From an uncultured Alphaproteobacteria bacterium (GTDB lineage: Bacteria > Pseudomonadota > Alphaproteobacteria > HIMB59 > GCA-002718135): a stretch of 6,413 nt of DNA. Numbering within the stretch: position 1 is the stretch's first letter; every line of letters starts with the position of its first letter. The notes below the pieces were generated by a model. The model searched no databases. It had not been told where the DNA came from and saw only the letters and a program-made list of their open reading frames with translations. Shown here in pieces: positions 2,479-6,413 of this stretch. The position numbers were made by a program, and so were the translations under genes. The stretch is taken from NCBI GenBank assembly GCA_902519435.1, contig CABYKC010000029.1:1-6413 (forward strand), read 5' to 3'.

Positions 2479-3315
2479 ATGAAAAAAATAAAATCGATTG
2501 AAGAAATTATTAATGATTATGATAATTTTATAATTGATCAATGGGGTGTAATGCATGATGGAACATTTGGATATGAGCATGCCTTTAATTCTATTAATAT
2601 TCTGAATAGTAATAATAAAAATTTGTTTATAATTTCAAATTCATCAAAAAGATCAAAATCATCCATAGATAGATTGCCAAAACTTGGTTTTAAAAAAAAT
2701 TCTTTTATAAATACAGTTACAAGTGGAGAAATGATTTGGCAATTACTTAAAAAAGGATTTTTAGATGATAAAAATAAGAAAAATTGTTTTCATATTTATG
2801 ATGAAGAAAAAGAGGATGGTCTAAATTTTAGAGATGGTTTAAATTTTAATTTTGTAGAAAAAGTAGAAGAAGCAGATTTAATTTTAGCTTGCACTCCTTT
2901 TGCAAAGTTTCAACCAATAGACTACATTCCATTACTAGAAGTAGCTTACAATAAAGAAATAACAATGTATTGTGCAAACCCTGACTTTGAAACAGTTGAA
3001 AGCAATAGTAACAATAATATTTTCTGTATGGGTGCTATTGGTGAAATATACAAAAAAATGGGTGGGAATGTTATTATAAAAGGTAAGCCTGATGTAAGCA
3101 TATACACTGCAACCACTAATCAAATTAATTTAGAAAAAAAAAGAACAGTAGCTATTGGAGACTCATTGTTCCACGACATTCAAGGTGCTAATAATTTTGA
3201 AATAGATAGTGTTTTAGTAAAATCTGGTATTCATAAAGATTTAAATCAAATAAATAATTTAATTAAAAATCATCAAATAACCCCAACCTTTATTATAGAT
3301 AAATTTAGTATTTAG
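2479..3315 (+). CDS. HAD-superfamily class IIA hydrolase (TIGR01459-like)
   Basis: This is a predicted phosphatase-type HAD protein of 278 residues; the substrate is unknown. Motif I is IIDQWGVMHDG (18-28) with nucleophile Asp20, but the usual second Asp two residues on is Trp22. DxWGVxHDG is, to my recollection, typical of the TIGR01459 subfamily. Motif II is IISNSS (51-56), motif III lies at KGKPD (201-205, Lys202), and motif IV is AIGDSLFHDIQGA (225-237; Asp228, Asp233). CANPD (165-169) and the large cap between motifs II and III mark class IIA, the NagD-like group. An in-frame 18-bp tandem duplication gives DGLNFR-DGLNFN (113-124) in the cap. The ATG lies 2 bases after the pyrD stop, with a possible GGAAAG ribosome binding site inside the pyrD 3' end (2462-2467), 11 bases upstream. 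Location behind pyrD raises a nucleotide-related substrate as speculation only. The family is confident, the function is not. Confidence 0.85.
   Translation: MKKIKSIEEIINDYDNFIIDQWGVMHDGTFGYEHAFNSINILNSNNKNLFIISNSSKRSKSSIDRLPKLGFKKNSFINTVTSGEMIWQLLKKGFLDDKNKKNCFHIYDEEKEDGLNFRDGLNFNFVEKVEEADLILACTPFAKFQPIDYIPLLEVAYNKEITMYCANPDFETVESNSNNNIFCMGAIGEIYKKMGGNVIIKGKPDVSIYTATTNQINLEKKRTVAIGDSLFHDIQGANNFEIDSVLVKSGIHKDLNQINNLIKNHQITPTFIIDKFSI
2815..2850 (+). repeat. 18-bp in-frame tandem duplication inside the HAD gene
   Basis: Two adjacent 18-base units, 2815-2832 and 2833-2850, match at 15 of 18 positions (GATGGTCTAAATTTTAGA and GATGGTTTAAATTTTAAT). They encode DGLNFR and DGLNFN, residues 113-124, at the cap-domain stretch just before FVEKVEEADLIL. 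As I recall them, homologues carry a single GLxLxFV-like segment here, so one unit is probably an extra copy. The frame is preserved. Confidence 0.8.
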
Positions 3316-3320
3316 AATAC

Positions 3321-3348
3321 TTGACAAAGTAATATTTATATTTACATG
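3321..3348 (+). promoter_or_regulatory. Candidate sigma-70 promoter for rpmB-yhhQ-tgt
   Basis: A perfect TTGACA -35 hexamer lies at 3321-3326 in the only sizeable non-coding gap (3316-3358), just ahead of rpmB. The -10 box is less clear. TACATG (3343-3348, 16-base spacer) matches TATAAT at only three positions. The better-looking TATATT (3337-3342) is only 10 bases from the -35, too close for normal use. If the TACATG position is right, transcription would start about 3354-3357, leaving only a few leader bases before the rpmB ATG. The location between two tight gene blocks supports a promoter; the exact -10 is uncertain. Confidence 0.5.
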
Positions 3349-3352
3349 AAAA

Positions 3353-3369
3353 CTCATTATGTCAATGAG
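3353..3369 (+). promoter_or_regulatory. Perfect inverted repeat enclosing the rpmB start codon
   Basis: CTCATT (3353-3358) and AATGAG (3364-3369) are exact reverse complements separated by ATGTC (3359-3363). In mRNA this is a 6-bp stem with a 5-base loop that holds the rpmB AUG. The stem stops there, as flanking bases 3352 and 3370 are both A. It could modulate initiation, act as a protein or ribosomal-protein binding site, or at the DNA level overlap the transcription start region. With only two G-C pairs among six it is weak, and a chance origin in AT-rich DNA is possible. Confidence 0.45.
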
Positions 3370-3640
3370 ATGTGAATTAACCGGAAAATCCTTCCAAACT
3401 GGTAACAACGTTAGTCATGCCAAAAATAGAACAAAAAGACGTTTTAAACCAAACCTTCAGAACATAACTTTTGTTAGTGAAGTATTGGGACAAAAATTTC
3501 AACTTAAAGTTGCAGTTAGTACTATACGTACAGTAGAAAAAAAAGGTGGATTAGATGAATTCCTCATCAATACACCAAACTCTAAATTGCCATTAAAGGC
3601 TAAAAAGTTAAAAAAAACTATTCTATCAAAATCTAATTAA
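3359..3640 (+). CDS. rpmB: 50S ribosomal protein L28 (bL28)
   Basis: This is a structural protein of the large ribosomal subunit. The 93-residue product matches the longer alphaproteobacterial form of L28: MSMRCELTGKSFQTGNNVSH (1-20) corresponds to the family's RCxLTGK-GNNVSHAxN start, followed by KRRFKPNLQ (27-35), the core strand QKFQLKVAVSTIRTVEKKGGLDEFL (45-69), and a Lys-rich tail typical of rRNA-binding proteins. There is no CxxC zinc-type motif; only Cys5 is visible. The ATG at 3359 is preferred over the ATG at 3365 because alphaproteobacterial L28 begins MSxRCELTG. No Shine-Dalgarno sequence is seen; the start codon lies in a small inverted repeat and close to a predicted promoter. 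It is the first gene of a block with yhhQ (9 bases downstream) and tgt, so the Q-salvage genes are probably transcribed with a ribosomal protein gene. Confidence 0.96.
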   Translation: MSMRCELTGKSFQTGNNVSHAKNRTKRRFKPNLQNITFVSEVLGQKFQLKVAVSTIRTVEKKGGLDEFLINTPNSKLPLKAKKLKKTILSKSN

Positions 3641-3649
3641 ATTTTTGTA

Positions 3650-4390
3650 ATGGGTTTTTTCTTTGAATTAACAACAATACTTAATTCACTTAGCACTGAA
3701 CTGATGTGGTTCATAATGCTCCTTTTTTGTTTTTTTTCTATTCTTATTTTTTTAAGGATATTTGGATATATAGGAATTTTTATTTATTCTGCACTAGCTG
3801 TAATTGCAGGAAATATTCAAGTTTTAAAAACAGTAGATTTTTTTTATTCACCTGAACCAGTAGCTTTAGGAACCATACTTTTTGCTTCCACATTTTTATG
3901 TACTGATATTTTATCTGAATATTATGGCAAGGAAAAAGCTAGAATGAATATTTTAATTGGTTTCAGCGCATTCTTATTTATGACTTTATTAATGGTAATT
4001 ACTATTGGTTTTCAACCATCAGATGCTGATTGGGTACAAGAGAGTTTATCAAATGTATTTACTCCAATGACAAGATTTTTCGTAGCTAGTATGATAGCAT
4101 ATTTAATAAGCCAATATTTTGATGTTTGGTTCTTTAACTATTTGAAGCAAGCTTTATCAGGCAAGTCTCTTTGGTTAAGAAATAATTTATCTACTATTAC
4201 CTCCTCTTTGGTTGATAACACTGTCTTTAGTATATTTGCTTGGATCTTATTAAATCCTGAGCCAGTAAGTGTGTATAATGTCATAATGATTTATATTTTA
4301 GGTACTTATCTTCTTAGAATATTTATAGCCCTACTTGACACCCCTTTTATTTATATAGCTAAGTTTTTTGTCCCAAAAACTAATGACTAA
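3650..4390 (+). CDS. yhhQ: Queuosine precursor transporter, YhhQ/DUF165 family (COG1738)
   Basis: This is an integral inner-membrane transporter, 246 residues. E. coli YhhQ imports preQ0 and preQ1, and a Chlamydia homologue was reported to handle queuine. The sequence is strongly hydrophobic with about six to seven membrane segments (roughly 19-36, 39-60, 70-86, 100-121, 142-160, 186-202, 207-240). Family signatures are the conserved CTDILSEYYGKEKAR (84-98), SxYFDVWFFNYLK (154-166), LWLRNNLSTITSSLVDNTVF (174-193), and the C-terminal GTYLLRIFIALLDTPFIYI (218-236). No signal peptide is evident beyond the first helix. The ATG follows the rpmB stop by 9 bases without a visible ribosome binding site, so reinitiation is likely. 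Its last 8 bases overlap the start of tgt, a direct functional link: the transporter supplies the base that Tgt inserts into tRNA. Which base is imported cannot be read from the sequence. Long T runs occur in the first helix. Confidence 0.92.
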   Translation: MGFFFELTTILNSLSTELMWFIMLLFCFFSILIFLRIFGYIGIFIYSALAVIAGNIQVLKTVDFFYSPEPVALGTILFASTFLCTDILSEYYGKEKARMNILIGFSAFLFMTLLMVITIGFQPSDADWVQESLSNVFTPMTRFFVASMIAYLISQYFDVWFFNYLKQALSGKSLWLRNNLSTITSSLVDNTVFSIFAWILLNPEPVSVYNVIMIYILGTYLLRIFIALLDTPFIYIAKFFVPKTND

Positions 4391-5582
4391 CTTTTCTTGG
4401 AAAGTTAAAAAAACAAATAAAAATAATAAAGCAAGAATAGGAAAAATTTCTACACCACATGGTGATATTGAAACTCCAGCATTTATTTTTTGTGCAACAA
4501 AAGCTGCATTAAAATCTTTTACTACACTTGAAGCAAAAAAAAATAATACACAAATTATACTATCCAATACATACCATTTAATGCTTCAGCCAGGTAGTGA
4601 ACTAATAGCTCAACATGGCGGTCTTCATAAATTTACGGGTTGGGATGGGCCTATGTTAACAGATAGTGGTGGATTTCAAATCTTTTCTCTTGGACATGGG
4701 TCAGTTGCTGATGAAATAAAAGGACGAAAAACAAATTCAAAAAATAAAAAAACTTTAATAAATTTGAATGAAGAGGGTGCGTTATTCAAGTCTTATATAG
4801 ATGGTTCTACTCATATTCTATCTCCTGAAAAATCAATAGAGGTTCAAAGAAATCTTGGAGCAGATTTCATCTTAGTTTTTGATGAATGTACTCCCTATAA
4901 TGTAGATAAAGTATACACATCTGATTCTATGTTAAGAAGTCATAGATGGTCTTTGAGATCCATCAATGCATTTAACTCTAAACTTAATTTTAATCCTAAA
5001 AATGGATCAGCTGGTAGACAAGAAATGTATGGTATTATTCAAGGAGGGATTTACAGAGATTTAAGAGAAGAAAGCATTGAATTTAATACAAAAAAAATCA
5101 ACACTTTTGGAATTGCCATTGGTGGAAGTTTAGGATCAAATAAAGATGAAATGAAAGATATAGTTCATTTTACTTCTTCTAAATTAGATAACACTCGTCC
5201 AGTACATTTACTAGGTATAGGTGATCCAAGGGATATATGGGATTTTGTTGCAGATGGAATCGATACATTTGATTGTGTAAGCCCAACTAGAATTGCAAGA
5301 CATGGATCAGCTTTAGTTAAAGGTAAACAGGGAAAAATAAACTTAAAAAATGTTAAATATAAAAATAATTTAAACCCAATAGATAATGAATGTAATTGCT
5401 ATACTTGTAAGAACTTTACACTGGCATATTTATATCATCTTTTTTCTGCACAAGAATTACTAGGATTACAGTTGCTTACTAATCATAATATATATTTTAT
5501 GAATAATCTTATGAAAGAAGTTAGAAGCTCAATTGATAACAATAATTTTGATAACGCAAAAAAGAAATGGTTAAATTCTTAA
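4383..5582 (+). CDS. tgt: tRNA-guanine transglycosylase, atypical Chlamydia-like form
   Basis: It exchanges guanine 34 in the GUN anticodons of tRNA Asp, Asn, His and Tyr for a deazaguanine base. The product is 399 residues, and all core residues are present: general base Asp94 (LTDSGGFQ), base-contacting Asp167 and Gln220 (FDECTPY, GIIQGG), nucleophile Asp297 (TFDCVSPTR), and zinc ligands Cys337, Cys339, Cys342 and His368. No archaeal PUA extension is present. It departs from the canonical bacterial enzyme in three places: [11 protein letters not shown] (34-44) instead of the usual MPVGTxATVK; about 26 residues (104-129, [13 protein letters not shown] onward) where Zymomonas Tgt has about 7; and [11 protein letters not shown] (247-257) instead of GGLAVGEGxxEM. 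These resemble Chlamydia Tgt as I remember it, an enzyme reported to accept queuine directly. The ATG at 4383 is chosen because MTNFSW fits family N-termini and overlaps the transporter gene by 8 bases; an in-frame TTG at 4368 would add five residues. Enzyme identity is firm; substrate preference is inferred. Confidence 0.95.
5579..5582. other. Tail-to-tail stop codon overlap of tgt and cobT
   Basis: The four bases TTAA hold both stop codons: TAA of tgt at 5580-5582 on the plus strand and TAA of cobT at 5579-5581 on the minus strand. No intergenic space exists for a dedicated terminator, and no GC-rich hairpin followed by a T run is apparent close to this junction. Transcripts from the two sides probably overlap at their 3' ends. 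Confidence 0.9.
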
Positions 5583-6413
5583 TTATCTAAATGAAAAGTA
5601 GAAGATAATTGATTTAGTAATACTTCGCCTAACTGATCGACATCCATTATTGTTACAGCCTTACTATAGTATCTTGAAACATCATGCCCAATTCCTATGG
5701 CAATTAATTCAATTTCATCTTTTTTTTCAATTTCACCAATTATATCTCTTAAATTTTTTTCTAAATAATTACCTGGATTTACAGACAATGTTGAATCATC
5801 AACTGGCGCACCATCACTTATAACAATAAGAATTTTTCTTTTTTCCTTTCGAAAAGATAATCTATTATAAGCCCATGACAAAGCTTCTCCATCGACATTT
5901 TCTTTCAAAATCCCCTCTTTCAATAACAAGCCCAAATTTTTCTTTGATCTCCTCCATGGTGAGTCTGCAGATTTATAAACAATATGTCTTAGATCATTTA
6001 ACCTGCCTGGATTAGAAGGCTTTCCATTTTTGATCCATTTTTCTCTTGAGTTACCTCCTTTCCAAGCTTTGGTTGTAAACCCTAATATTTCAGATTTAAT
6101 TAAGCATCTTTCCAATGTTTTTGCTAAAATATCTGAACAAAGGGCTGCAACCGTAATTGGTCTGCCTCTCATTGAACCAGAATTATCAATTAGGAGACTC
6201 ACAATAGTATCTTTAAATTCAACTTCCTTTTCTATTTTGTAGCTTAATTTATTATTTGGATTAGCAATAATTTTAGCTAATCTTGATGTATCAAGAAAAC
6301 CCTCTTCCATATTAAAATCCCAATGACGATTTTGCTGAGCTAAAAGTTTTCTTTGCAGTCTATTAGCAATTTTAACAATTAGAGGTTGAAAAGAAAATAC
6401 TTGTTGATCAAGA
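5579..6413 (-). CDS. cobT: CobT-type cobaltochelatase subunit, C-terminal part (5'-truncated)
   Basis: In the aerobic B12 pathway CobT pairs with the AAA+ ATPase CobS and the large subunit CobN to insert cobalt into hydrogenobyrinate diamide. The frame stays open to the right window edge, so the Met at 6310 is internal; 277 C-terminal residues of a protein usually about 600 long are seen, and the acidic N-terminal half lies outside. Visible: [22 protein letters not shown] (17-38, diagnostic of CobT), then a von Willebrand A domain with MIDAS motif DNSGS (76-80, bases 6173-6187), [73 protein letters not shown] (198-217) and [11 protein letters not shown]. The match to alphaproteobacterial CobT is very close. 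Its stop codon overlaps that of tgt on the other strand. CobST-like pairs also resemble MoxR/VWA chaperone modules, so a B12 role depends on whether cobN and the rest of the pathway exist elsewhere in the genome. Confidence 0.95.

Follow-up and report, generated by a model that had tools for sequence, protein, structure and literature searches.

The overlapping genes yhhQ and tgt in the 6,413-nucleotide stretch of alphaproteobacterial DNA analysed here (the window) probably form a direct queuine-salvage module, a reading supported by their gene order and overlap, the absence of QueA and QueF among relatives, the distinct Tgt clade and the altered substrate pocket, all of which are read from sequence. 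In the proposed mechanism, YhhQ would import the free base queuine, and Tgt, with a pocket remodelled by a shorter loop and nearby changes, would put queuine in place of guanine 34 in the GUN-anticodon tRNAs by one exchange reaction, which would make QueA and QueG/QueH unnecessary. We infer that queuine is the base imported and inserted, and that it originates from other organisms. The system is of a known kind, with hosts that are new and apparently widespread. Direct queuine salvage has so far been shown for the intracellular pathogen Chlamydia trachomatis, in which YhhQ and Tgt work on queuine but not on preQ1 (PMC11570991, PMC11130926). The features of the locus are as follows.

3359..3640, plus strand: rpmB (ribosomal protein L28; TIGR00009, 75.4 bits), upstream neighbour of yhhQ, outside the salvage function
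3650..4390, plus strand: yhhQ/QPTR (COG1738, PF02592; TIGR00697), queuosine-precursor transporter, 246 aa
4383..5582, plus strand: tgt, tRNA guanine(34) transglycosylase (TIGR00430), 399 aa from the ATG at 4383
4383..4390, plus strand: 8-base overlap ATGACTAA of the tgt start and the yhhQ stop, read from the sequence
4680..4769, plus strand: stretch coding for Tgt residues 100-129 and holding ~18 extra residues after DSGGFQ, placed by motif position
5115..5153, plus strand: shortened base-binding loop of Tgt (canonical example AIGGLAVGEGQDEM), placed by motif position

The yhhQ–tgt locus and its conservation

The genes in the window are ordered lysS (class I), pyrD, a HAD hydrolase gene, rpmB, yhhQ and tgt, followed by cobT on the opposite strand. 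The yhhQ frame starts with an ATG at 3650, after a gap of 9 bases behind rpmB, and its stop codon ends at 4390, and tgt extends from an ATG at 4383 to a stop codon ending at 5582, which confirmed the 8-base overlap given in the preliminary description of this DNA; the two genes are presumably translated in a coupled manner. An alternative TTG start of tgt at 4368 would yield a protein of 404 aa, and the closest homologues are 399 aa long, as from the ATG at 4383. At the other end of the gene, positions 5579-5582 are four bases common to tgt and the convergent cobT frame, which continues past the window end. A search for regulatory RNAs with Rfam returned zero matches up to E=1, and promoter-like matches in 3200-6413 were no commoner than in shuffled sequences (14 observed vs 19.9 shuffled).

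A scan of species genomes, from which 76 loci were kept, included 60 loci of close relatives (L001-L056, L058, L060, L061 and L067), with Tgt proteins 86-99% identical to that of the window. In 60/60 of them, counting L019, whose yhhQ frame is interrupted by a contig end, yhhQ was the gene immediately preceding tgt, in the same orientation; therefore, the arrangement is not due to chance. The two genes overlap by 8 bases in 46 of these loci and are separated by a gap of 18-20 bases in the other 14. One of the loci (L058) belongs to the single cell AG-337-I02, with a Tgt 96% identical to that of the window, and this cell has been assigned to the order HIMB59/AEGEAN-169, formerly SAR11 clade V (PMC8692485). 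AEGEAN-169, of which HIMB59 and LSUCC0245 are the two isolates, is described as streamlined and separate from SAR11 (PMC10308909). Judged by Tgt identity, the window is very probably derived from the order HIMB59 (AEGEAN-169). A true SAR11 host was considered and rejected because of the placement of AG-337-I02 in the order HIMB59 (PMC8692485). Seven stretches with the pattern were recovered from viral contigs, zero of them encoding a relative.

A separate clade of short-loop Tgt

The Tgt of the window matched TIGR00430 with 422.5 bits (cut-off 306.75) and PF01702 with 417.4 bits (cut-off 26.3), and it contains the DSGG, FDEC, FDC and CxCxxC...H motifs of the catalytic Asp and the zinc site. 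Aspartates corresponding to Z. mobilis D102, D156 and D280 are conserved in the Tgt alignments. The motifs quoted in the preliminary description, among them AIGGSLG, RPxHLLGIGD and PTxxARHG, were indeed found in the protein; according to that description, they would be features of Chlamydia Tgt. The protein has neither the canonical GGLAVGE pocket nor PRYLMGVG, and its GGSLG agrees with the published queuine-user motif GG[LS][AS]G at 4/5 positions, with Leu replacing Ala/Ser. A structure model of the protein was obtained with a pLDDT of 84.5, the ~18-residue insert being poorly resolved and of low confidence, and its nearest PDB structures were those of Z. mobilis Tgt (TM 0.85/0.91). MAFFT placed the Leu of the short loop against Val233; because the loop is one residue shorter, either Gly or Leu may fill this position.

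The distribution of this loop was followed in a class sample of 289 alphaproteobacterial genomes, in which Tgt was found in 260 and QueA in 199. With the window's Tgt as the query, 59/289 genomes matched at E <= 3.6e-101, and the next match, G353 (5.0e-94), has a canonical pocket. The other 201 Tgt genomes were typed by score, some of them being fragments (e.g. G148), and 41 of their Tgt loci were read, a non-random set made up of the 30 best Pfam scorers and 11 hand-chosen loci. Among the 59 sequences and that of the window, the loop reads GGSLG in 35, GGCLG in 17, GGTLG in 6, and GGSFG and GDCLG in 1 each. It is one residue shorter in 60/60 of these clade members vs 0/41 canonical proteins, so the claimed departure from the canonical preQ1-using form holds. 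In 60/60, His likewise replaces Tyr258 and Leu replaces Met260, with the Z. mobilis numbers assigned through the motifs, and Cys158 is kept in 60/60. DSGG and the EEG-like motif that follows it are 33-44 residues apart in 55/60 clade members (5 unmeasured), and 17 residues apart in 34/41 canonical Tgt (7 unmeasured). Glu235 is present in 41/41 canonical sequences; in the clade, Glu does not rank among the top four residues of the corresponding column, though L195 has it.

A Tgt tree was then calculated from 68 short-loop sequences, 35 canonical alphaproteobacterial sequences and 8 from other phyla, chlamydial and eukaryotic sequences lying outside its scope. In this tree, obtained by a quick method with no bootstrap and with a weak root, the 68 short-loop Tgt fell on one branch (SH-aLRT 100, length 0.91). 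A position inside the canonical clade, which the preliminary description had named as speaking against its proposal, was not found; the window's Tgt is located outside the canonical alphaproteobacterial clade with the same SH-aLRT of 100. Two further observations were made on these sequences. The zinc-site cysteines (CxCxxC), present in the window's Tgt, are lost in the clade members L064, L065, L066, L183, L185 and L196. G353 (L112) possesses two Tgt genes, one of which carries DEP replacing DEC together with GGLSVGE and branches apart from other alphaproteobacterial Tgt.

Compared with the canonical Tgt of Z. mobilis and E. coli, the window's protein shares the fold, the catalytic residues, Cys158 and the zinc-site cysteines, but differs in its shorter loop, His for Tyr258, Leu for Met260, the ~18-residue insert and the separate clade. 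The chlamydial/algal BL-TGT and the human enzymes possess a pocket Gly together with Leu (BL-TGT) or Val (human) at 158, according to PMC12301720 and PMC3660597; the pocket Gly is common to the window's Tgt, whereas at 158 the latter keeps Cys. Eukaryotic QTRT1 also has a Gly in its pocket motif (PMC3660597) and resembles the window's Tgt in the use of queuine without later enzymes that is predicted for the latter. In contrast, QTRT1 partners with QTRT2 and carries Val at 158. The QTRT1 loop has the canonical bacterial length. In Z. mobilis Tgt, the V233G mutation, alone or with C158V, generated a larger pocket but no queuine insertion, as described by Biela et al. (PMC3660597), which suggests that pocket space is required yet insufficient.

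Queuosine pathway genes and the inserted base

The pathway content was judged on relatives, namely 110 genomes of AG-337-I02's family, many of which are incomplete single-cell genomes. Tgt was detected in 96/110 and YhhQ in 94/110 of them, and QueA and QueF were each found in 0/110, with controls positive in 9/14 and 8/14 reference genomes, respectively. Because Tgt was seen in 87% of the 110 genomes, a gene common to the whole family would hardly have been overlooked 110 times. QueG, QueH and QueC were searched in 80 genomes, comprising 23 of the 110 and 57 other carriers of the short-loop Tgt type. Within the 23 family genomes, QueG was found in 0/23 and QueH in 0/23 (QueH control positive in 2/14 reference genomes). 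Accordingly, the complete set of preQ1 synthesis, QueA and QueG that had been named beforehand as counting against queuine salvage did not appear among these relatives. The QueC model matched 23/23 family genomes, at no more than 31 bits, with most matches above the cut-off of 22 and a few spanning most of the model. Three weak HIMB59 matches were named by family, as MnmA (411 bits), GMP synthase and asparagine synthase, and the QueC-like matches in the 23 genomes are probably other enzymes; a convincing QueC was not found in this set. Across the 80 genomes, 74 matched the QueC model and 65 exceeded the low cut-off, with scores above 100 bits only in G352, G286 and G236. The match in G352 is a true QueC (NCBIfam), and G352 and G286, which lack QueA, QueG and QueH, both give clear QueC matches; the enzyme may serve there to make a different 7-deazaguanine compound.

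In the class sample, QueA was missing in 56/59 short-loop genomes vs 12/201 genomes with other Tgt, some of the genomes being counted by elimination; the association of QueA absence with Tgt type yields a Fisher p of 5e-41, a value that ignores kinship. As the short-loop type is one clade, the QueA loss within it is mostly one inherited event and not 56 independent ones. Among canonical genomes, queA was located within 450 bases of tgt in 24/28 top-scoring genomes with coordinates (of the best 30). In the distant short-loop genomes (non-HIMB59), yhhQ adjoins tgt in 27/57, and YhhQ was found anywhere in the genome in 39/57 and not detected in 18/57.

The gene content resembles that of C. trachomatis, which has yhhQ and tgt without QueA or QueG, and a pocket motif with Gly, as queuine users are reported to have, is a further similarity; the two systems, likened through literature descriptions only, differ in that the HIMB59 host is free-living and its genes overlap. 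Against exclusive queuine use, three clade members carry QueA. G219 and G323 have a short-loop Tgt and, at another site of the contig, a cluster of yhhQ, queA and queG, and G236 has a short-loop Tgt with QueA, QueH and QueC; all three sit inside the short-loop clade of the Tgt tree. Their QueA genes indicate that the clade may also accept preQ1, or that these lineages changed back, and the kept Cys158 likewise speaks against exclusive use. G219 and G323 (L164, L172, L212 and L213) are thereby a test case provided by nature for the role of the loop in specificity.

The three genomes and the retained Cys158 could be accommodated by a dual use, in which the pair would take both queuine and preQ1, with Q made from queuine when present and the modification otherwise ending at preQ1; the B. 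henselae proteins behaved in this dual manner in E. coli (PMC11570991). We consider this unlikely, and the transporters of the two QueA/QueG genomes tell against it. In a YhhQ tree made by a quick method from hand-chosen rows, with long branches, G219 and G323 branched apart (SH-aLRT 99) from 29 rows (three duplicates) including the window's. The transporter type thus tracks gene content in G219 and G323, which suggests that transporter specificity shifted along with the gene set there. The YhhQ of the window matched TIGR00697 with 168 bits (cut-off 50.95) and PRK11212, the model of the E. coli-type preQ0/preQ1 transporter, with 35 bits (cut-off 252); the eight proteins compared from the two YhhQ branches all scored below the PRK11212 cut-off, and the model does not tell the branches apart. 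Three YhhQ-family matches occur in G012 (L239, L245 and L246), one of them adjoining tgt.

Terminal preQ1 salvage, in which YhhQ would import and Tgt would insert preQ1 and the tRNA would stay at preQ1, also appears rather improbable. Such salvage is on record for Alphaproteobacteria that have only tgt and in which Tgt retains GGLAVG, and the proposed cases, Bartonella and Pelagibacter, resemble the window in being Alphaproteobacteria with tgt and QPTR but no QueA/QueG (PMC11570991). Members of the YhhQ family elsewhere carry preQ0/preQ1, and the QueA of three short-loop clade members would fit such a use. However, Bartonella and Pelagibacter Tgt, the proposed preQ1 users (for Bartonella shown in E. 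coli; PMC11570991), keep the canonical pocket, and the window's Tgt does not. Moreover, the 12 QueA-less genomes with other Tgt include the 1.2-Mb genomes G215 and G322, which carry GGLAVGE, fall outside the short-loop clade and are similar to Pelagibacter as described in PMC11570991. The same 2024 survey gives queA and queG in the complete alphaproteobacterial genomes analysed, Bartonella excepted, and states elsewhere that Pelagibacter, Anaplasma and Ehrlichia retain only tgt (PMC11570991). A relic, or a role outside Q formation such as guanine exchange only, is highly improbable: a Q measurement for HIMB59 was not found in our literature search, but the two genes are adjacent in 60/60 loci of a streamlined group and the three aspartates named above (D102, D156 and D280 in Z. 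mobilis) are conserved.

Spread of short-loop Tgt among free-living hosts

Beyond HIMB59, the best 120 matches to the window's Tgt all carried GGSLG (120/120). With the Tgt of G290, a 6.0-Mb genome, as the query, 119/121 sequences (the best 120 matches and the query) were of the short-loop type, with GGSLG in 108, GGCLG in 6 and GGTLG in 5, and two were read otherwise by the script pattern. Sources of short-loop Tgt included Rhodospirillum centenum, Rhodocista pekingensis and Nitrospirillum amazonense (Azospirillaceae), as well as Azospirillum sp. RWY-5-1, Indioceanicola profundi and Oleisolibacter albus, Rhodospirillales which we take to be free-living. QueA, QueG and QueH were not found in G290 and G386, whose Tgt are close to those of the named Rhodospirillales. 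A short-loop Tgt without QueA and without yhhQ nearby was also found in the Holosporales bacterium L068 (G018). Based on these Tgt sequences, the clade is wider than the preliminary description assumed, reaching free-living Rhodospirillales; the streamlined free-living host proposed there fits HIMB59, but the trait occurs also in non-streamlined/non-marine hosts.

We lean towards the view that a queuine-inserting Tgt clade, new to the papers searched, spans about one-fifth of the sampled Alphaproteobacteria, from HIMB59 and Holosporales to large-genome Rhodospirillales, and that queuine serves free-living bacteria as a shared vitamin-like compound, also beyond animal hosts. A search of the titles and opening lines of the open-licence literature did not find a queuosine/queuine report for HIMB59 or Azospirillaceae, and the uptake of ready-made queuine has to date been demonstrated chiefly for parasites and eukaryotes. 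If the proposed salvage is true, a common ocean order and various free-living relatives would depend on queuine made by others, and a wobble-base modification, hence decoding, would be tied to community exchange. Cultured strains relevant to this reading are HIMB59 and LSUCC0245, together with Rhodospirillum centenum and Nitrospirillum amazonense, the last two with a Tgt of the same type.
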